A DNA stretch of 64,000 nucleotides, from assembly GCA_030055465.1 (NCBI GenBank), contig JASFYF010000001.1:413179-477178 (forward strand), in the 5' to 3' direction. Made by a program: the position numbers and the translations under genes. A model generated the notes under the pieces. The model had not been told where the DNA came from. It saw only the letters and a list, made by a program, of their open reading frames with translations, and did no database searches. Position 1 is the first letter of the stretch; each line of letters begins with the position of its first letter. The DNA is from Candidatus Nezhaarchaeota archaeon (GTDB taxonomy: Archaea > Thermoproteota > Methanomethylicia > Nezhaarchaeales > WYZ-LMO8). This document shows, piece by piece, positions 10,719-31,724 of the stretch.

Positions 10719-11240
10719 GTGTCGCGTATGGCCAAAATAGGCATGAGGTTTGGAGAGGCATTAATCGGCGAAGAGCCCGAGATAGCTCATATAGATCTGA
10801 TAATAGGGGACAAGGATGGCCCAGCGGGCACGGGTTTTGCCTTCGGCTTGTCGCACCAGACCTATGGCCACACCAAGCTATTCGCCGTCTTAACGCCAAA
10901 CCTGCTAGTAAAGCCTGTAACGCTCCTCGTGCCCAAGGTAACGATCAAAAACCTCAACCAAGCTGGACTGGCGTTCGGATCGGCGCAGTATGCAGTTGCC
11001 AAAGCTGTTGCCGACGCCGTCGCCGAAGGAATAATACCAAAGGACTTAGTTGAAGACGTTGTAATAATATGCGGTGTATTCATTCATCCGAAGGCGAAGG
11101 ACCCAGACAAAGTCTTCAGGTACAACTACGAAGCCACGAAGCTCGCCCTTAAAAGAGCGATGAGCAGAGAGCCGAGCATAGACGAGATATTGGCTAGAAA
11201 GGATGAAGCTACACATCCGCTTTATAAGCCCACACGTTAA
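10719..11240 (+). CDS. fae: formaldehyde-activating enzyme
   Basis: 173 aa; GEALIGEEPEIAHIDLIIGDKDGPAGTGFAFGLSHQTYGHTKLFAVLTPNLLVKPVTLLVPKVTI, canonical Fae. Confidence 0.96.
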   Translation: MSRMAKIGMRFGEALIGEEPEIAHIDLIIGDKDGPAGTGFAFGLSHQTYGHTKLFAVLTPNLLVKPVTLLVPKVTIKNLNQAGLAFGSAQYAVAKAVADAVAEGIIPKDLVEDVVIICGVFIHPKAKDPDKVFRYNYEATKLALKRAMSREPSIDEILARKDEATHPLYKPTR

Positions 11241-11257
11241 TCGAACTACACTGCAAG

Positions 11258-12106
11258 GTGGCCCGCGATATGGGAACCATAAGTGATGAAATCGTTAAGA
11301 AGCTGAAGAAGGACTTCTACATAATAGATGTGCACGCCCATATAGGCGAAACAGTCGGAGTAGGCGTTTACCTCCCGGAGTACATAAGGGTTAGAGCCGA
11401 AGACCTGCTCAGGAGCATGAAGCTCAACGGCACAGATAAAGCGGTGATATCACCCCTAGTTGGCTACCCGAGGCCCCACGGCATAAAAGACACCATGAGG
11501 CAAAACGATGAGATAGCTAAAGCCGTAGAGAAATACCCTGACAAGTTTCCGTGCGGTCTGGGGATAGTAGATCCTTACGAGGGTGATAAGTCGATTGAAG
11601 AGGTCCACAGGATAATGAGAGATCTGGGTCTTAGAGGATTGTTGTTTTACATGACCTTCCAAGGTACATACCTCAATAATCCATTGATGGTTAGGATACT
11701 TAGAGAGCTGTCAAAATATCCGGGAGCTGTCGTCATGGCACACACGTCCAGCGGAATACCTGGCGAGCCGTGGAGGCTGGGCGAGCTTGCCGAGATGTTT
11801 CCAAGCTTAAAATTCATAAGCGCGCATCCCTGCGTGGGCATTGGACAGCTAGGCCAGCACATCCCCTTCTGCAGGAGGTTGAAGAACCTATACGTTGACA
11901 CCGCTCTTTGGATTCCGGAGGATGAAACGTGGTTGACGGCGAAGGCGTTGGGAGCGGACCACATCCTCTACGGTGGGGACATAGGGGGTATATCGCGGGT
12001 TTCTTTTGGTCTCCTTCAGTTGCTTTTGACTGACGTCTTCACTGAGGAGGAACTTGAAATGATTCTGAGCAAAAACGCAGCGAAGATATTCAACATAAAG
12101 GTATAG
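11258..12106 (+). CDS. amidohydrolase_2 (ACMSD-like) family protein
   Basis: 282 aa; DVHAHIGE, MAHTSSG, SAHPCVG, LYGGDIGG metal-binding pattern. Confidence 0.85.
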   Translation: MARDMGTISDEIVKKLKKDFYIIDVHAHIGETVGVGVYLPEYIRVRAEDLLRSMKLNGTDKAVISPLVGYPRPHGIKDTMRQNDEIAKAVEKYPDKFPCGLGIVDPYEGDKSIEEVHRIMRDLGLRGLLFYMTFQGTYLNNPLMVRILRELSKYPGAVVMAHTSSGIPGEPWRLGELAEMFPSLKFISAHPCVGIGQLGQHIPFCRRLKNLYVDTALWIPEDETWLTAKALGADHILYGGDIGGISRVSFGLLQLLLTDVFTEEELEMILSKNAAKIFNIKV

Positions 12107-20265: not shown

Positions 20266-21576
20266 ATGTCCTCATATTTCCTTGAGGGGTGGCTGGCGGA
20301 GGTAGAAGCGGTTAAGCAGGCTTATGGTGGTAACGTGATATACGAGGTGGCACCCAGACCCCTTCAACCGGTGAACAGCGAAATAGAGGCTGTGAGAAAC
20401 ACTATTAGGAACCCTACGTCTTCAAGACCCCTCAGGGAGATCGCTAAGCCAGACATGAAAGTAGCCATAGTAGTTGACGACATATCTAGGGCCACGCCTA
20501 GGGAGAAGATAGTCCCGGTGCTGCTCAACGAGTTGAATGTTGTTGGAATTCCAGATGCGAACATCAGGGTGGTAATAGCGTTGGGGACCCATAGATACCT
20601 GACCGATGAGGAGGTTACCAGCTGCCTGAGCAAGGAAGTGGTTGAGAGAGTTGAAGTGTTCAACCATGAATGGATGGACGCGGAAAAACTGGTTTACATT
20701 GGCGACACAAAGAGCGGCATTCCCGTGCACGTTAACAGGCTGGTGTACGAGTCGGACCTAATCATAGGGGTGGGCAGCATAATTCCACATCTATGCGCGG
20801 GCTACGGGGGAGGGGCTAAGATAATTCAGCCGGGGGTCTGCGGGGAGTTAACAACCGCACGTACGCATGCACTGGCCGCATTGATCGGCCCCTTAGAACT
20901 TCTGGGGAAACCAGATAACGTTGTTAGAAGTGAGATGGAAAGCGTCGCTGAAGTCGTGGGGTTAGACTTCATAGTGAACGTGGTCTTTAACGGCAGAGGG
21001 AAGGTTGTCAAGGTAGTTGCCGGCGACATGAAGAGGGCCTTTAGGGATGGTGTGAAGACCGCGGAGTTCATATATAGAAGAGAGGTCCCAGCTTTAGCTG
21101 ATATAGTTATTGTCAATTCTCACCCTGCGCTAATAGATTACTGGCAGGCAATGAAGGGTCTTGTGCATGCTCAATTAGGCCTTAGAAGGGGCGGCACCGT
21201 AATCCTCTACACCGACTGCCCCGACGGGATCTCCCCCACTCATCGCGAAGTATTCGAGAAGTACAGCGAGGCAAGCGTCAAGGAGGTTGAAAGGTTGCTA
21301 AAAGAAGAAGCTGAAGAAGACCTTGTAGGCTTGAGCGGGCTATGCATGCACAAGAAGTGTCTAGCCCGCAGCGACTGCATATGCGTATCTCGAAATTTAA
21401 AGGATGAAGATAAAGAGGTTTTAAAATTCGAAAGCGCGGATGACCTCATTCAAGCGCTTCGAATGGCTTTTAATAAGCATGGTAGAGACGCCAAGGTGGG
21501 CATAATTCATCATGGTGGAGAGGTGTACCCCACCTTTAGCGGTACAAATGGACTTTACCGCCGGGATCAAGGCTGA
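20266..21576 (+). CDS. larA: LarA-like (DUF2088) nickel-dependent lactate racemase family protein
   Basis: 436 aa; VAIVVDDISRATP, LGTHRYLTDEE, GYGGGAKIIQPGVCG. Confidence 0.85.
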   Translation: MSSYFLEGWLAEVEAVKQAYGGNVIYEVAPRPLQPVNSEIEAVRNTIRNPTSSRPLREIAKPDMKVAIVVDDISRATPREKIVPVLLNELNVVGIPDANIRVVIALGTHRYLTDEEVTSCLSKEVVERVEVFNHEWMDAEKLVYIGDTKSGIPVHVNRLVYESDLIIGVGSIIPHLCAGYGGGAKIIQPGVCGELTTARTHALAALIGPLELLGKPDNVVRSEMESVAEVVGLDFIVNVVFNGRGKVVKVVAGDMKRAFRDGVKTAEFIYRREVPALADIVIVNSHPALIDYWQAMKGLVHAQLGLRRGGTVILYTDCPDGISPTHREVFEKYSEASVKEVERLLKEEAEEDLVGLSGLCMHKKCLARSDCICVSRNLKDEDKEVLKFESADDLIQALRMAFNKHGRDAKVGIIHHGGEVYPTFSGTNGLYRRDQG

Positions 21577-22141: not shown

Positions 22142-23350
22142 CTAGACGAGCTTCGCCAGAACCTCGGTTATATCGTAGAACTTGAGCTCTGACCCCGCTG
22201 CATGTATAGCGTCAACTATGTTTCGCTTGCAGAATGGACACGCTGATATCAGGAGGTTCGCTCCAGCCTCTTCAGCCCTCCTGACAACGCCCAAGCCTAT
22301 CTTCAGGGCAAGCTCGCTGAAGCCGGATTTTATGCCTCCACCCCCGCCGCAGCACATTGCATACTGCCTTGTAGGGCTCATCTCCACGAGCTCTATGCCT
22401 GGGATGTCCTTTATTATTTCTCTAGGGGGATCATAAACTCCGGCGTGCCTGCCTAGGTGGCATGGATCGTGGTATGCGACCTTCTCTTCAAGTCGCCCAG
22501 GAATCTTCAGCTTGCCCCTGCTTACGAGCTCCCACATTAGCTCGGTTGCGTGGAGCACCTCGAAGTCCCACCTGCTTCCAAGTATTTCAGGGTAATCCAG
22601 CTTCAATGTTCTGTAGCATCCAGCACAAGAGGCGACCACCTTCTTTGCTTTTGACTTCCTAAGCTCCTCTAGGTTGTGTTTGGCCAACTCCTCCACGTAG
22701 TCCCACTGACCTGTCCTCAGGAGCACGGAGCCGCAACACCACTCGTCTATTATGGCCGGTGAAAGGCCAGCTCTGCTTAAGACCTTGATCGTGCTCTCGC
22801 ATATCTCCGGGTGCCTGTAAGGCGAAGTGCAGCCAGCAAAGTAAGCTACTTCGCCTCGCCCGGAAAGATTGTAGCCGCTTGGAAGCCAGGCGAACCGCTT
22901 GGCATGGGGTTCGCCGTAAGGGTTCTTCTGGGCTCTGGTCCTCTCAGCGACGCGTCGGTGGGGTTCCACGAGTAGGTCTGGTCTTCTCTTGTATATCTCC
23001 GCTCGCATGGCCTCAAAGACCCTTACTTGATCGAGCTCGTCAACGCTTGAAACCCCCATAACCACTGGAAAGTGTATGACGCACACTTCATGGCATGCCC
23101 CGCACGTGGTGCAGCTGTAAACCAAGTCAACTAGATCCTTGGTCACATCTATGCTCCCTTCCAGGAGGGCTTGGGCCATGGCCAGCCTGCCCTTAGCCGT
23201 GAAGAATTCCCATGGTCCTGATGGATGGTACTCGTATATCGGGCACACCTTGTTTATTCCGCGCTCTAGGAAAACCGAGGTCCTACACCACCCGCACCTG
23301 GCGCACCGGTATACCTGCTTAGCGTACTTCTCAAGCACCATTCTCACCAC
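22142..23350 (-). CDS. (Fe-S)-binding oxidoreductase (GlpC/HdrD/LutA-like, CCG domains)
   Basis: CARCGWC...CP, CTTCGACHEVC, YHDPCHLGRHAGVYD, MCCGGGGG. Confidence 0.9.
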   Translation of the reverse strand: MVRMVLEKYAKQVYRCARCGWCRTSVFLERGINKVCPIYEYHPSGPWEFFTAKGRLAMAQALLEGSIDVTKDLVDLVYSCTTCGACHEVCVIHFPVVMGVSSVDELDQVRVFEAMRAEIYKRRPDLLVEPHRRVAERTRAQKNPYGEPHAKRFAWLPSGYNLSGRGEVAYFAGCTSPYRHPEICESTIKVLSRAGLSPAIIDEWCCGSVLLRTGQWDYVEELAKHNLEELRKSKAKKVVASCAGCYRTLKLDYPEILGSRWDFEVLHATELMWELVSRGKLKIPGRLEEKVAYHDPCHLGRHAGVYDPPREIIKDIPGIELVEMSPTRQYAMCCGGGGGIKSGFSELALKIGLGVVRRAEEAGANLLISACPFCKRNIVDAIHAAGSELKFYDITEVLAKLV

Positions 23351-23351
23351 C

Positions 23352-24743
23352 TCATAGACCCATTATGCCGGGGGCCATTATGTTGTTGGGGTCGAGAAGC
23401 CTCTTCAACCTCTTCAACAGCTCGTAGTACATGCCCAGCTTGTGCATCTGATCAGCCCACAGAGCACCCATACGGTAGGGGCATACGCCCATGTCGAAGA
23501 GCCTGTTCTTTATTTCGTGCCACGCCTTGATTGCTAGGTCGCTCTCCTGGGGGCTGCTAGGATCAAAGTACGTGACGACTATTACAATAACGCTTCGATC
23601 GCAAACGAAGCTCCCCGCGCCCACCCTTAACCCATACCTCGCCTTAACGTCGTTGGCCACCTCTTCTATCCTCCTCATGTATGATCCTACCTCTCCTATG
23701 GGGACGTGCATTGGCAGCGCCGCCCTCATGCCAAGCTTGTAGCCGAATAAGCCAACCCACCTGTACCTCTCCCTCCAGGTTTCTTCAGCCAGTTCAGATC
23801 CAAGGTATGTTCCGCCTTTCCCAGCCGACTCCATGAGGCGGTTGAGCTCGATTTCCAGTATCTCCTTTGTGTTCGCCTCAACCACGAACTTTATCGTATG
23901 CTGCCAAGGGGCTTTCTCGGGGAACAGCATGTTAAGAGTCCAACTAGGCGACAAGTATGCGTAGATTGTGGGTATTCTCATCCTCCTAACCCTGTATATT
24001 GCTTCGCCGGCCGCCTCAAGGGTGTCGTACCCGAAGGTGGCAAACCCCATGGCTCCAGACATCTCCTCTATCTTGAGGGCCAGCTCAGTTATTATACCCA
24101 GAGTGCCCTCAGATCCGCAGAAGAGGCCTGTCAGGTCATTTCCAATGGCGTAACGGTAGAAGTGGCCGTGGGCGTTTGGGTTAGCCATGCTGCCGGTGGT
24201 TAACACCTCGCCCGTGGGCAGGACGACCTTGCAGCCGAGGACGCAGTCGCCTTGGTTAGAGAAGTTGGGGCCTGCACCCCACCCAGTTCCATGGCTTGCG
24301 AAGTTGCCTCCCACGGTTCCGCCCATGCCGTTCTCGGGGCTCATTATGAACCTAAGGTTCCGCCTCGCCAATGTTGCTTCGAGCTCGCCGAAGGTTATCC
24401 CCGGTTCGACGACGCAGGTGAGCGCTCTCTCATTGATCTCTAGAACCCTCTTCATCGCCGCCAAATCGACTATGATGCTCCCCTCCACAACGGGAACCGC
24501 ACCCCAAAGGCTCGTACCGCCGCTCCTAGGGTAGAGGGGCGTCTTGGTCTCGTTAGCCCACGAGACTATTTTCTGGACGTCCTCCGTGGTTGATGGCCTG
24601 ACAACCGCCATTGGTACCTTCCCTTTCATGGGGCTGGCATCCCTGGAATATATGAGGAGCGCGGGCTTGCTGTCCACTACCTTTTCAGGACCAAGCAAGT
24701 CCTTTAGAGCCTTTATCTTTTCGTTCGCGGAAATGGTCGACAT
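23352..24743 (-). CDS. FAD-linked oxidase (GlcD/D-lactate dehydrogenase-like)
   Basis: 463 aa; VVRPSTTEDVQKIVSWANETKTPLYPRSGGTSLWGA; LLDPNNIMAPG. Confidence 0.9.
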   Translation of the reverse strand: MSTISANEKIKALKDLLGPEKVVDSKPALLIYSRDASPMKGKVPMAVVRPSTTEDVQKIVSWANETKTPLYPRSGGTSLWGAVPVVEGSIIVDLAAMKRVLEINERALTCVVEPGITFGELEATLARRNLRFIMSPENGMGGTVGGNFASHGTGWGAGPNFSNQGDCVLGCKVVLPTGEVLTTGSMANPNAHGHFYRYAIGNDLTGLFCGSEGTLGIITELALKIEEMSGAMGFATFGYDTLEAAGEAIYRVRRMRIPTIYAYLSPSWTLNMLFPEKAPWQHTIKFVVEANTKEILEIELNRLMESAGKGGTYLGSELAEETWRERYRWVGLFGYKLGMRAALPMHVPIGEVGSYMRRIEEVANDVKARYGLRVGAGSFVCDRSVIVIVVTYFDPSSPQESDLAIKAWHEIKNRLFDMGVCPYRMGALWADQMHKLGMYYELLKRLKRLLDPNNIMAPGIMGL

Positions 24744-27123: not shown

Positions 27124-27456
27124 TTAGAGCTCCTTCCTGTGGTTGATCTTTCTCTCCACGAAGTAGGCTGCCGTAAAGCAGCTGGCGGCCGCTATCAAAC
27201 AGGTTGTTGCTGGGGTTGGTATGCTTGGCAATTCTATCAGTGCGGGGAAGGGCACCGAGGAGAAGGGAGTGGGTTCAACCCATGGGAGTAGCCCTATCAA
27301 CGTTACGATTGCCGAGAACATAACTCCACCCAAGCTTATCGTGAGGCCAAGGCAACCCCACCTCCTCTTTACGAGGAGGGCTATCACGGCGAAAATTATG
27401 GACCAGAAAACGAAGTTTGCTAGGACGTGCTCTAACCCCACGCCTGCCAAACGCAC
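27124..27456 (-). CDS. small hypothetical membrane protein
   Basis: 110 aa, about 3 hydrophobic segments. Confidence 0.45.
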   Translation of the reverse strand: MRLAGVGLEHVLANFVFWSIIFAVIALLVKRRWGCLGLTISLGGVMFSAIVTLIGLLPWVEPTPFSSVPFPALIELPSIPTPATTCLIAAASCFTAAYFVERKINHRKEL

Positions 27457-27729: not shown

Positions 27730-28563
27730 TTATGTTTTCCTCAGCAACGGTATGTCGCCCAGGTTCACGTCCTTTTCCGTCCTTACATCGTCGAGGGTCC
27801 AAGTGTAGTAGCCTTCCTTCTCCACCTTAACTGTGTACTTGCGGTTCCACCTCAAGTTGTTAAGCCAGAAGTCCCCGAACTCGTCGGTCACGGTTTCATA
27901 GGTCTCCCCGGTTTCGGGGTCTGTGACTGTTACTTTAGCGCCCTCCACGCATTCGTCAACGTCAGGATCGTAGACCGCCCCAGCGATGAAGGGCTTTGGC
28001 AGGTTTAAGTAGTAAACCCTCGGTTTGGCTCCGCACTCCGGTTTAAGCACTTCGGCTTTCTCGATCATGGATTTGAGGTCTTTCTCGTCTCCGAAGATTA
28101 TCGCGTCGAAGGGGCACACGTCAACGCATCGGGGCGTCGAGATTAGAGGGTCTTTGCCGTCCAAAAGGTGTGCGCACCCCGTGCACTTCTGGGCGATGTT
28201 GAGCTTGTCGTTGAAGTATATCGCGTGGTAGGGGCATGCGGCAACGCATTCCCTGCATCCGTTGCACTTCTCCGGGTCTATTATGACGAGGCCGTCAGGC
28301 CTCTTGTAAATGGCTTTAACCTTGCAGGCCGACATGCAGGAAGCGTTGTCGCAGTGCATGCAGAGCACCGGTATGTAGGTGACCTTGACCTTCGGGGTTG
28401 TGCCCCTCTCCATCTCCTCCAGCTTCAGCCAGAAGTGCCCCGTGTCGGGTTGAGGCTTAGCGTAGGGGCTCCAGTCGTTGTCCACGTGCTCGTCCTTGCA
28501 GGCGATCTGGCAGTCGTAGCATCCATGGCATTTAGCTATGTCTATAACCATCACTTTGCCCAT
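27730..28563 (-). CDS. 4Fe-4S subunit of a Mo-bisPGD enzyme with C-terminal CNA-B/transthyretin-like domain (TthS-like)
   Basis: CHGCYDCQIACKDEHV, CNGCRECVAACP, CTGCAHLL...CVDVCP; C-terminal FIAGAVYDPDVDECVEGAKVTVTDPETGETYETVTDEFGDFWLNNL. Confidence 0.9.
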   Translation of the reverse strand: MGKVMVIDIAKCHGCYDCQIACKDEHVDNDWSPYAKPQPDTGHFWLKLEEMERGTTPKVKVTYIPVLCMHCDNASCMSACKVKAIYKRPDGLVIIDPEKCNGCRECVAACPYHAIYFNDKLNIAQKCTGCAHLLDGKDPLISTPRCVDVCPFDAIIFGDEKDLKSMIEKAEVLKPECGAKPRVYYLNLPKPFIAGAVYDPDVDECVEGAKVTVTDPETGETYETVTDEFGDFWLNNLRWNRKYTVKVEKEGYYTWTLDDVRTEKDVNLGDIPLLRKT

Positions 28564-31194
28564 CTATGCCACCCCCTTAACCCAAGACTCGTGGCATGGA
28601 CCCACGTCGGGGTGGGTCATCCTCTTAAACGCTTCGGGGTACTGCCTCATAAGCTCGAATACGTCCACCTTCTCCACCTCCACAAGTATGCCGGTGCACA
28701 CTTGCCCAACGGTGTTCTTGGAGATCGGCTTGTGGGGAACTATTAAGTCCACGGCTCCCCCGCGATCTATGAGTGGGTTGATCGATATTATGTCGGCTCG
28801 AGAACCATGGTGCACGTGCACGCATCCAGGCATAATCCTCTCGGTCACGTAGGCGCCGCAGAGCACGGCTCCCCTCTCATTGTAAACCTTCACAATGTCC
28901 CCGTGCTTTATGCCCCTCTTAGCTGCATCGGTGGGGTGGATCCAAACTGGCTCGTAGTAGTAGCCGTCCGGGCCCTTGATCTTCGCCGTGGGTATCTCCC
29001 TTATCCAAGTTATGTCATCTCCCTGGGCGTGGAATCTCCATCTCGGGTGGTTCGACATCAACAGGAGCGGGTACTTCTTCGCCCTAGGGTGGAAGAGGCT
29101 TTCCTGGTGCGTCTCGCCGTAGGGTATCCAGCGGGGCAGAGGCGGCCTCTCCTCGTCGTCTGGGAAGTGCTTGGCCAACCCTGTTGAGACCACCTCAAGC
29201 TTCCCCGTGGGGGTGTCGAGGCCTCTGCCTTCAGGCAACTCGTAGTACCACGTCATGCCAGGCTTGGATCCCCATGTTGGTCCTTCCCTCTCCTCTATCT
29301 CCCTCTGTATCCTCTTCCACTCCTCCCATGTGGGGTGGTCGGCTATTATCAGCTTTCTCTTCTTGAACTCCTCCCAGCCTATCCCGTACTTCTTTTTAGC
29401 CCAGGATTTCTCGTAGAGCTGCTTCATCAGCTCCTCTGGCGGCGGGAACTTGTCCCCTATCCCCATTCTCTCAGCTATGAGCCTGCATATCTCGTAGTCG
29501 CTCTTCGATTCCCCTACCGGCTCCATGCACTGATCCTGGTAGGCTATCGCGTTTATAGCTGCTCTCGTGCACACAACCATGTCGTTGTGCTCGAATATGG
29601 TCTGCGCCGGGAGTATTATGTCGGCGAAGATTGTTTCGTTCTCGAGCCATGGGGATATCGCAACTATGAACTCCACGTTGGGGCTCCTGTAGGCGTCTAT
29701 TATCTTCTTGTTCCAGCAGGTTATGTAGCAGCAGTTAGCGTTCCATATCATCTTTATGCCTGGATGGCCGGGAGGCGGGAACACGTACTTCTTGAACTGG
29801 TTCTCCCTGGTGTCGCCTATGGCTCCCGTGCCGTACCAGGTTATCGGTGGGTTAAGTATGGCTTCAGGCACGAGGACCTTGGGGACTATTACCGGGGCAT
29901 CCGCGCAGGTTACGGTGTACCTAGCCAAGGGGTTGCCAACGTACGTCGCCGATATGTCCGGGTATTGCGGGACGGGCGGCAGCTTCTTACCGGTGCCGGC
30001 TGGGTAGAAGCCCCTCAGGAACTGCCTTCCAGGTTTGCCGAGGCCCTGCATGGCTAGGACTATGATCTCTATTCTTGCAACCTCATGAGAGTAGGGTCCC
30101 CGAATCTTGGGTCCACCGAAGAATACGGCTAGTGAGGTCCTCTTCTTGGCCCACACCTTTGCCAAGGCCTTTATGGTCCTGGCGGGCACCCCAGTTATCC
30201 TTTCAGCCCACTCAGGCGTCTTGGGGACGCCGTCCGACTCGCCCATCACGTACTTCTTGAACTCGTCGAAACCCACAGCGTGGGTCTTCATGAATTTCTC
30301 GTCGTACGTCCCGGCCTTGATCCAGAGGTACGCTATCGCCAAGTACAGGGCTGCGTCGGTGTTTGGCCTTATCGGTATCCACTTGTTGGCGTGAATCGCG
30401 GCCGCGAAGTTGCAGTCGGGGGAGATCGCAATTATCTTTATGCCCGCCTCCTTAAACCAATCGCACATCACTCCCCCTATCTGTCCAGCGAAGCCGGCGA
30501 CCGTCGTCTCCGGGTCGCAGCCGGTGAATATCAGAACTTCGGAGTTCTCGAGGATGTCGTCGAATATGGCGTCTTGGTGTGCGAGGCCCGCTTGGGTGCC
30601 CTCCATGCCCCACACGTGCTTTGCGCCCCAGTAGTAGCCCTCCCAGCTGTCGGGGTTCCTCACCTGCATCGTCCATCCCCCGAGCAGGCGGAAAAGCTCG
30701 TGGTGCACGCCGTGGGGTGTCTGCACGTGGCCTCCTTGGCCGTGCCCGTCATCTTGGACCAGAACTGATGTGAGGCCGTACTTCTCCTTTATCCTGTTAA
30801 GCTCCTTGACGATTATGTCTATGGCTTCATCCCACGTTATCCTGACGAAGCCGCTTTTGCCCCTGTTCTGGGGGTTCCTGTTTTCGGGGCTCCAGTCAAC
30901 CCTCTTAAGTGGGTACAGGACCCTGTTGGGCGATAGGGCTCGCTTCTTGTAGGCCAAGCTAACCCAGTATGGCAGGCTCTTGGGCGGCTGGGTGAACGTT
31001 TTTCCCCTAGCCTTTATCTCGTAGAGCCTTACACCCTTGAAGTAGGCTGGCCTAACCCTTATTATTTTGCCGTTCTTGACGTGCACTTCCAGCGGCTCCG
31101 CTGAGCTGGCGACTCCTCCGAGGCCGTGGCTTACATAGCAGACCTTAACATCATCGGGTTCTTGGGCCTTTACGGGTTTTCCGACACACATCAC
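28564..31194 (-). CDS. molybdopterin oxidoreductase catalytic subunit, pyrogallol transhydroxylase (TthL)-like
   Basis: 876 aa; DMSO-reductase-family motifs (FVRITWDEAIDIIVKELNRIKEKYG; RNPDSWEGYYWG; SNHPRWRFHAQGDD); no N-terminal CxxC cluster motif, no Tat signal. Confidence 0.85.
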   Translation of the reverse strand: MMCVGKPVKAQEPDDVKVCYVSHGLGGVASSAEPLEVHVKNGKIIRVRPAYFKGVRLYEIKARGKTFTQPPKSLPYWVSLAYKKRALSPNRVLYPLKRVDWSPENRNPQNRGKSGFVRITWDEAIDIIVKELNRIKEKYGLTSVLVQDDGHGQGGHVQTPHGVHHELFRLLGGWTMQVRNPDSWEGYYWGAKHVWGMEGTQAGLAHQDAIFDDILENSEVLIFTGCDPETTVAGFAGQIGGVMCDWFKEAGIKIIAISPDCNFAAAIHANKWIPIRPNTDAALYLAIAYLWIKAGTYDEKFMKTHAVGFDEFKKYVMGESDGVPKTPEWAERITGVPARTIKALAKVWAKKRTSLAVFFGGPKIRGPYSHEVARIEIIVLAMQGLGKPGRQFLRGFYPAGTGKKLPPVPQYPDISATYVGNPLARYTVTCADAPVIVPKVLVPEAILNPPITWYGTGAIGDTRENQFKKYVFPPPGHPGIKMIWNANCCYITCWNKKIIDAYRSPNVEFIVAISPWLENETIFADIILPAQTIFEHNDMVVCTRAAINAIAYQDQCMEPVGESKSDYEICRLIAERMGIGDKFPPPEELMKQLYEKSWAKKKYGIGWEEFKKRKLIIADHPTWEEWKRIQREIEEREGPTWGSKPGMTWYYELPEGRGLDTPTGKLEVVSTGLAKHFPDDEERPPLPRWIPYGETHQESLFHPRAKKYPLLLMSNHPRWRFHAQGDDITWIREIPTAKIKGPDGYYYEPVWIHPTDAAKRGIKHGDIVKVYNERGAVLCGAYVTERIMPGCVHVHHGSRADIISINPLIDRGGAVDLIVPHKPISKNTVGQVCTGILVEVEKVDVFELMRQYPEAFKRMTHPDVGPCHESWVKGVA

Positions 31195-31379: not shown

Positions 31380-31724
31380 CTACCCTCTCAGCCTCTCGGC
31401 GACCTCAACTATAAGCTCGATCCCCTTCTGCAGCTGCTGCAGCCCCTTCTCGGTAGGCTTGTAGAATGTGTCTTCGCCCGACTTAACCTTGGCTATCAGG
31501 CCCTCCCTCTCCATCCTGTACAGGACCGTGTACACTGTCACGGTTGCGGCATCTATCCCGTACTTCTCCTTCAAGGCGACTTTAACTTGGTAGGCGTAGG
31601 TTGGCTTTTCAGCCAGCTCCTTCACTATGTAGAGCCAGAGGTTCTCCTTGGTCAGCTTCTCCCTCAGCCTCTGAAGGGCTTTTGAGTCCTGCAAGGCGTT
31701 CGAGGACAATATATTTATACTCAT
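31380..31724 (-). CDS. PadR family transcriptional regulator
   Basis: KPTYAYQVKVALKEKYGIDAATVTVYTVLYRMEREGLIAKVKSGEDTFYKPTEKGLQQL winged-helix pattern. Confidence 0.88.
   Translation of the reverse strand: MSINILSSNALQDSKALQRLREKLTKENLWLYIVKELAEKPTYAYQVKVALKEKYGIDAATVTVYTVLYRMEREGLIAKVKSGEDTFYKPTEKGLQQLQKGIELIVEVAERLRG

Follow-up and report, generated by a model that had tools for sequence, protein, structure and literature searches.

The window analysed here is a 64,000-nucleotide stretch of Candidatus Nezhaarchaeota DNA (NCBI GenBank assembly GCA_030055465.1, contig JASFYF010000001.1, positions 413,179 to 477,178 of the forward strand). The host assembly is a single contig of 1.02 Mb, rated 67% complete. 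The subject is a gene pair at window positions 27,730 to 31,194, which most likely encodes a cytoplasmic, soluble alpha-beta molybdo/tungsto-bis(molybdopterin guanine dinucleotide) (bis-MGD) enzyme. Phylogeny places the enzyme, as a new archaeal member, in the sister clade to the transhydroxylase/hydroxylase branch of the MopB superfamily, here called class 2. About an even chance is given to the fuller reading, in which this distinct class-2 enzyme would work with a soluble electron partner in a redox exchange of an oxygen atom or hydroxyl group on a ring bearing several hydroxyls. A sequence-only reading of the same DNA had proposed a cytoplasmic archaeal transhydroxylase with a novel substrate. 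The cytoplasmic location, the archaeal origin and a probably different substrate were upheld; the enzyme was not filed as a transhydroxylase because it falls in the sister clade, lacks several class-1 pocket residues and is predicted to carry a four-cluster wire.

Gene pair, nearest solved relative and phylogeny

The 876-aa and 277-aa subunits described in the sequence-only reading were recovered as open reading frames (ORFs) that abut with a gap of 0 bp, both on the minus strand (Table 1). A chance ORF was ruled out because the pair is kept at 82-83% identity in sister genera. The large subunit matched Pfam Molybdopterin, Molydop_binding and PF21423 ('Pyrogallol hydroxytransferase large subunit-like, domain 1'); no NCBIfam model reached its cut-off in a scan of this subunit. 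As had been claimed, it has no N-terminal Fe-S motif, its first 120 residues holding only two Cys (3 and 19), and no twin-arginine translocation (Tat) motif was found in it. The small subunit matched Fer4 dicluster domains and CarboxypepD_reg (PF13620, residues 193-265, E = 4.8e-14), which agrees with the several 4Fe-4S motifs and C-terminal beta domain previously noted.

The best Protein Data Bank (PDB) match of the large subunit was chain A of the Pelobacter acidigallici transhydroxylase TthL/TthS, also named PgtL/AthL (4v4c_A, E = 6e-142), followed by the DMSO reductase family (6e-70) and, more distantly, acetylene hydratase (5e-20). Residues 5-271 of the small subunit matched 4v4c_B (E = 5e-57). 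A ColabFold (AF2) model of the large subunit had a pLDDT of 88 and found 4v4c_A as its best fold match (TM 0.82, E = 1e-69), with DMSO and trimethylamine N-oxide (TMAO) reductases behind it (E = 5e-56 and weaker). TthL/TthS is thus the nearest characterised and solved relative, as the sequence-only reading had proposed. The two enzymes share the predicted fold, the two-subunit layout, the lack of an FS0 cluster in the large subunit, the Ser ligand and the small-subunit beta domain; the window large subunit is only 37% identical to TthL and belongs to a separate clade.

A scan of a genome collection gave at least 569 confirmed relatives of both classes, of which the best 80 were kept. A scan of viral contigs with the window protein gave no matches. 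Maximum-likelihood trees of 65 rows and, with more care, of 34 rows were calculated; because selection partly favoured sequences resembling the window, sampling is denser in class 2 than in class 1. Both trees placed TthL, archaeal group c and plasmid-borne bacterial relatives in class 1, and the window, archaeal groups a and b and most scan matches in class 2. The classes are sister clades with support of 100/100 each, and the two are joined in a single clade that excludes DmsA/TorA/BisC and other MopB proteins (support 99 and 100/100). Holding the window type with class 1 was rejected by the approximately unbiased (AU) test (p = 9e-46). The window large subunit accordingly lies outside the TthL clade and equally outside the DMSO/TMAO/biotin-sulfoxide reductase clade of DmsA/TorA/BisC, and no kinship with polysulfide, thiosulfate or arsenate reductases, the placement that would have counted against the earlier claim, was seen. 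Members of class 2 come from Dehalococcoidia, Desulfobacterota, Coriobacteriia, Sporomusa, Oscillospiraceae and a small number of archaea.

Gut catechol dehydroxylases (Dadh, Hcdh, Cadh, Cldh, Dodh, Eadh) resemble the window enzyme in being bis-MGD enzymes; they act on hydroxylated rings, the substrate type proposed for the window enzyme, and the Gordonibacter types are soluble alpha-beta enzymes like the window pair. They differ in forming their own clade, nearer acetylene hydratase (PMC7028382). Characterised Gordonibacter urolithin and catechol dehydroxylases were considered as class-2 members, which neither the published phylogeny nor the G398:C12 MopB genes (presumed Cdh-like, the exact eadh genes not being identified) supported; Gordonibacter MopB rows taken as Cdh-like fell far outside class 2.

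Active site and iron-sulfur clusters

The segment RNPDSWEG, earlier likened to the Ser-Mo ligand region, aligned with Asp174-Ser175-Trp176 of TthL. In 97 class-2 rows the corresponding columns hold Ser in all 97, Asp in 96 and Trp in 93. The His144 column holds His in 97/97 class-2 and 11/11 class-1 rows, and Trp in TorA and BisC as aligned. The assignment of its window counterpart, His151, was agreed by phmmer and MAFFT; hhalign misplaced the His144 region. His144, Asp174, Ser175, Trp176 and Glu177 are common to both classes; in the alignments made, most of the six outgroup rows lack them.

Tyr404 of TthL was paired with window Tyr411 by profile-profile alignment; MAFFT gaps this column, also in a local alignment. 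Tyr411 is invariant in two further alignments. Within the window's own subclade 11 rows carry the P-x-Y-[PA] motif, against a single row among the rest of class 2. The view that all class-2 rows lack Tyr404 was therefore dropped for the window. His144, Asp174 and Tyr404 are the acid/base residues proposed for TthL.

Four further class-1 invariants, His145, Trp147, Tyr152 and Tyr560, correspond to Gly152, Gly154, Thr159 and a deletion in the window, and are replaced or deleted throughout class 2, with His still at 145 in two rows. The proposed check of the pocket, in which substitutions would have counted against the earlier claim, therefore gave a divided answer: the Ser ligand, His144, Asp174 and Trp176 are retained and these four positions are not, so the predicted substrate pocket differs from that of TthL. 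The catalytic groups look kept and the substrate-contacting shell looks different. TthL Cys557, Arg153 and Trp354 were dropped as diagnostic residues as they vary within class 1.

All 16 cluster Cys are kept in the window small subunit, giving four predicted [4Fe-4S] clusters, as against three in TthS, which keeps 12 of the 16. The 16 ligand Cys are present in all tabulated archaeal class-2 small subunits and in E. coli DmsB; TthS and the class-1 small subunits tabulated keep at most 12, and the bacterial class-1 ones have fewer clusters than the window subunit. The combination of three clusters and a beta domain expected of class 1 was thus not found: the beta domain is present, but with four predicted clusters. 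The 16-Cys set favours, though it does not prove, a redox role over a non-redox transhydroxylase; the probable activity would be reductive dehydroxylation or hydroxylation, with a polyphenol or cyclic polyol as substrate.

A true non-redox transhydroxylase, converting pyrogallol to phloroglucinol or acting on an analogous substrate, would share the two-subunit architecture with beta domain, the Ser ligand, His144, Asp174 and probably Tyr404. 'Pyrogallol hydroxytransferase' genes have also been annotated in Chloroflexi RBG-2, RBG-1351 and DEH-C11 (PMC3971608, PMC4959651), with function assigned there by similarity only. Class-2 sequences from Dehalococcoidales and RBG-series Chloroflexi were among the bacterial relatives found, and those exact annotated genes may be of either class. 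This explanation is nevertheless quite unlikely, given the AU result and the position outside the PgtL clade, the four altered pocket positions and the fourth predicted cluster, and a separate class-1 enzyme in the sister genomes G002 and G004 fits the role better. These group-c proteins are 43-45% identical to the window large subunit and 52-53% to TthL, and carry the class-1 pocket residues. In G004 the large and small subunits read as one 1086-aa fusion ORF, and the G002 small subunit is without the beta domain. Judged from sequence, the G002 and G004 enzymes are better archaeal transhydroxylase candidates than the window enzyme.

An enzyme of the resorcinol or dihydroxybenzoate hydroxylase type, taking hydroxyl from water and passing electrons out, is rather unlikely. 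RhL/RhS has been described as a redox, two-subunit, cytoplasmic member of the same Ser-ligated branch (PMC10100899), and the cluster wire of the window enzyme is intact. Aromatic-type neighbours (acyl-CoA synthetase, VOC and FAH-family genes) surround bacterial class-1 plasmid genes. The window type, however, lies outside the clade of those bacterial class-1 sequences (the tree holds no authenticated RhL; RhL, compared by description, is probably class 1), and no aromatic ring-cleavage genes were found beside the window pair.

Genomic neighbourhood of the pair and its relatives

The order PadR, Mo large subunit, Mo small subunit, GlcD-like, GlcF-like and convergent LarA-like is syntenic between the window and G002, where the orthologues are 75% (PadR, in the same place), 80% (GlcD-like, directly downstream of the Mo genes), 75% (GlcF-like) and 73% (LarA-like) identical. 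In the window, CdvB-like and epimerase genes lie between the Mo genes and the GlcDF-LarA set; these and an Ino1 neighbour were considered and judged unrelated. No known membrane-anchor gene adjoins the pair, as had been stated, and a 110-aa hydrophobic ORF without Pfam match (27124-27456, minus strand) follows downstream, with no counterpart seen in G002. GlcD/GlcF-type genes also stand beside a class-2 gene in G316:C8 and in G002.

Archaeal group a, the window type, comprises genes 82-83% identical in G002 and G004, a partial copy in G001 (86%) and an orthologue in G316 (78%). The G316 gene is preceded by a TorD-like chaperone and followed by a PF04199 cyclase of ring-opening type and a short-chain dehydrogenase/reductase (SDR), with thiolase-, enoyl-CoA hydratase- and CaiB-like genes beyond. 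By family type, if not necessarily in activity, these two match dihydrophloroglucinol cyclohydrolase (PF04199) and phloroglucinol reductase (SDR) (PMC10470551). These neighbours support a substrate class shared with class 1, as do the class-1 and class-2 genes found within about 6 kb of each other in 8/77 bacterial loci of several lineages, a frequency given without a background rate.

A non-aromatic 2-hydroxyacid, cyclitol or sugar acid, handled in one pathway alongside the LarA- and GlcDF-like neighbours, is distinctly improbable as the substrate. It would suit the LarA-GlcDF-Mo neighbourhood shared with G002, the DctP, dicarboxylate/citrate-type and MFS transporters near bacterial relatives, and the G316 SDR, whose closest PDB SDRs are gluconate and galactitol dehydrogenases. 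GlcDF is not beside the Mo genes in G004, though, and the co-localisation with class 1 and the common His/Asp/Ser set point to the PgtL substrate class.

Table 1. Features of the gene pair, its neighbours and related loci. Positions are those of the window unless a locus (L) is named.
Feature	Position	Strand	Basis or remark
Mo large subunit, 876 aa	28564..31194	-	ORF; catalytic bis-MGD Mo/W subunit, class 2 of the PgtL/RhL-related branch
Small electron-transfer subunit, 277 aa	27730..28563	-	ORF; 16 ligand Cys, four [4Fe-4S] predicted
CarboxypepD_reg (transthyretin-like) beta domain, small-subunit C-terminus	27769..27987	-	Pfam PF13620; covered by phmmer alignment with 4v4c_B
DSWEG, residues 182-186: predicted Mo ligand Ser183 (TthL Ser175), Asp182 (Asp174), Trp184 (Trp176)	30637..30651	-	Alignment
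His151, counterpart of TthL His144	30742..30744	-	Alignment
Tyr411 in P-x-Y-[PA]-[DE], probable counterpart of TthL Tyr404	29962..29964	-	Profile-profile alignment and motif count; moderate certainty
PadR-family regulator, directly upstream, same strand; probable operon regulator	31380..31724	-	Pfam PF03551
GlcD-like FAD-linked oxidase, candidate redox partner	23352..24743	-	Pfam FAD_binding_4/FAD-oxidase_C
GlcF-like Fe-S/CCG protein, partner of the FAD protein	22142..23350	-	Pfam CCG and Fer4_8
LarA-like (lactate racemase family), convergent, conserved beside GlcDF	20266..21576	+	Pfam Lar_N/LarA_C
Archaeal class-1 gene, G004	L019 7848-11108	-	
Archaeal class-1 gene, G002	L023 10329-13488	+	
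Archaeal class-1 gene, G126, partial	L169 4789-6708	-	
B12-binding radical SAM genes	L064 10322-11956; L166 5574-7214; L167 3024-4754; L168 3446-4183		Pfam for two of them

Several other features were recorded. The window's own genome holds a group-b paralogue (C1:154119-156737, 56% identical), with an orthologue in G005. Near it lies a second MopB large subunit, accompanied by a separate Fe-S subunit (G000:C1:168886-171762; L021 3986-6862, minus strand), with GlcF/GlcD-type genes in between. In G144, two class-2 large subunits (L166 2688-5435 and L167 6351-9155) have Tat-type signals and, unlike the window enzyme, are probably exported; the second match spans one in-frame TGA. The class-2 match in G316:C8 (L164 5426-7945) contains three in-frame TAA, may be a pseudogene or an extension artefact, and adjoins GlcDF-type and Liv-type binding protein genes. 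Next to class-2 genes in the archaea G144 and G129 and in Geomobilimonas are genes for B12-binding radical SAM proteins that fall in a single sequence cluster. BKACE and 3-hydroxyacyl-CoA dehydrogenase-like pairs, a pairing as in phloroglucinol (or carnitine) breakdown, occur in G004 (L181 15451-17429) and G316 (L184 7726-9822), both of which carry class-2 enzymes. At 10719-12106 of the window, a gene that by eye looks like Fae (formaldehyde-activating enzyme) is followed by an amidohydrolase of PF04909, a family that includes aromatic decarboxylases.

Proposed reaction and wider meaning

In the proposed mechanism the ring substrate would be a polyphenol, or a cyclic polyol or diketone derived from one, and one of its hydroxyls would bind to the Mo, for which Ser183 would be the ligand. 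Acid/base catalysis would fall to His151 and Asp182, with Tyr411. The four small-subunit [4Fe-4S] clusters would carry electrons in from, or out to, a soluble partner, for which the neighbouring FAD/Fe-S GlcDF-type complex is a possibility. Of the two directions, reductive dehydroxylation has a slight edge over oxidative hydroxylation.

Several observations weigh against this redox reading of the ring-substrate enzyme. No class-2 member with a known substrate was found. A set of gut class-2 small subunits has lost the same cluster that TthS lacks, so cluster number is no strict proxy for redox function. The LarA and GlcDF neighbours point to 2-hydroxyacids as well, and the link to GlcDF as partner is weak because GlcD-type genes are common here (9 in this 1-Mb assembly) and the GlcDF found close to other class-2 genes share only 31-42% identity with the window's. 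The genome check for aromatic pathway genes proposed earlier also failed to lend support: the 67%-complete assembly gave no match to PF04199, BKACE or HGD-D, with phloroglucinol reductase and gallate decarboxylase not searched for.

A broader picture is put forward as speculation and is rather doubtful as a whole. Class 2 would be a hitherto undefined clade of Mo/W enzymes, common to anaerobic bacteria and a few archaea, that uses hydroxylated rings as cytoplasmic electron acceptors by reductive dehydroxylation, driven here by a hydroxyacid-oxidising FAD/Fe-S complex and placed elsewhere beside class-1 transhydroxylases, which it would feed or prime.

A 2023 superfamily survey listed 0 archaeal RhL/PgtL members among 285 matches (PMC10100899). 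Few enzymes of the PgtL/RhL branch have been characterised, and the window adds an archaeal member of its large sister clade. Class-2 members turn up repeatedly in Gordonibacter, Ellagibacter, Dehalococcoidia and sulfate reducers, for which the anaerobic turnover of polyphenols is a live question. Setting class 2 apart from true transhydroxylases would guard against the over-annotation of pyrogallol metabolism, and the split between the classes yields a small set of residues, and of gene pairs lying together, for assay.

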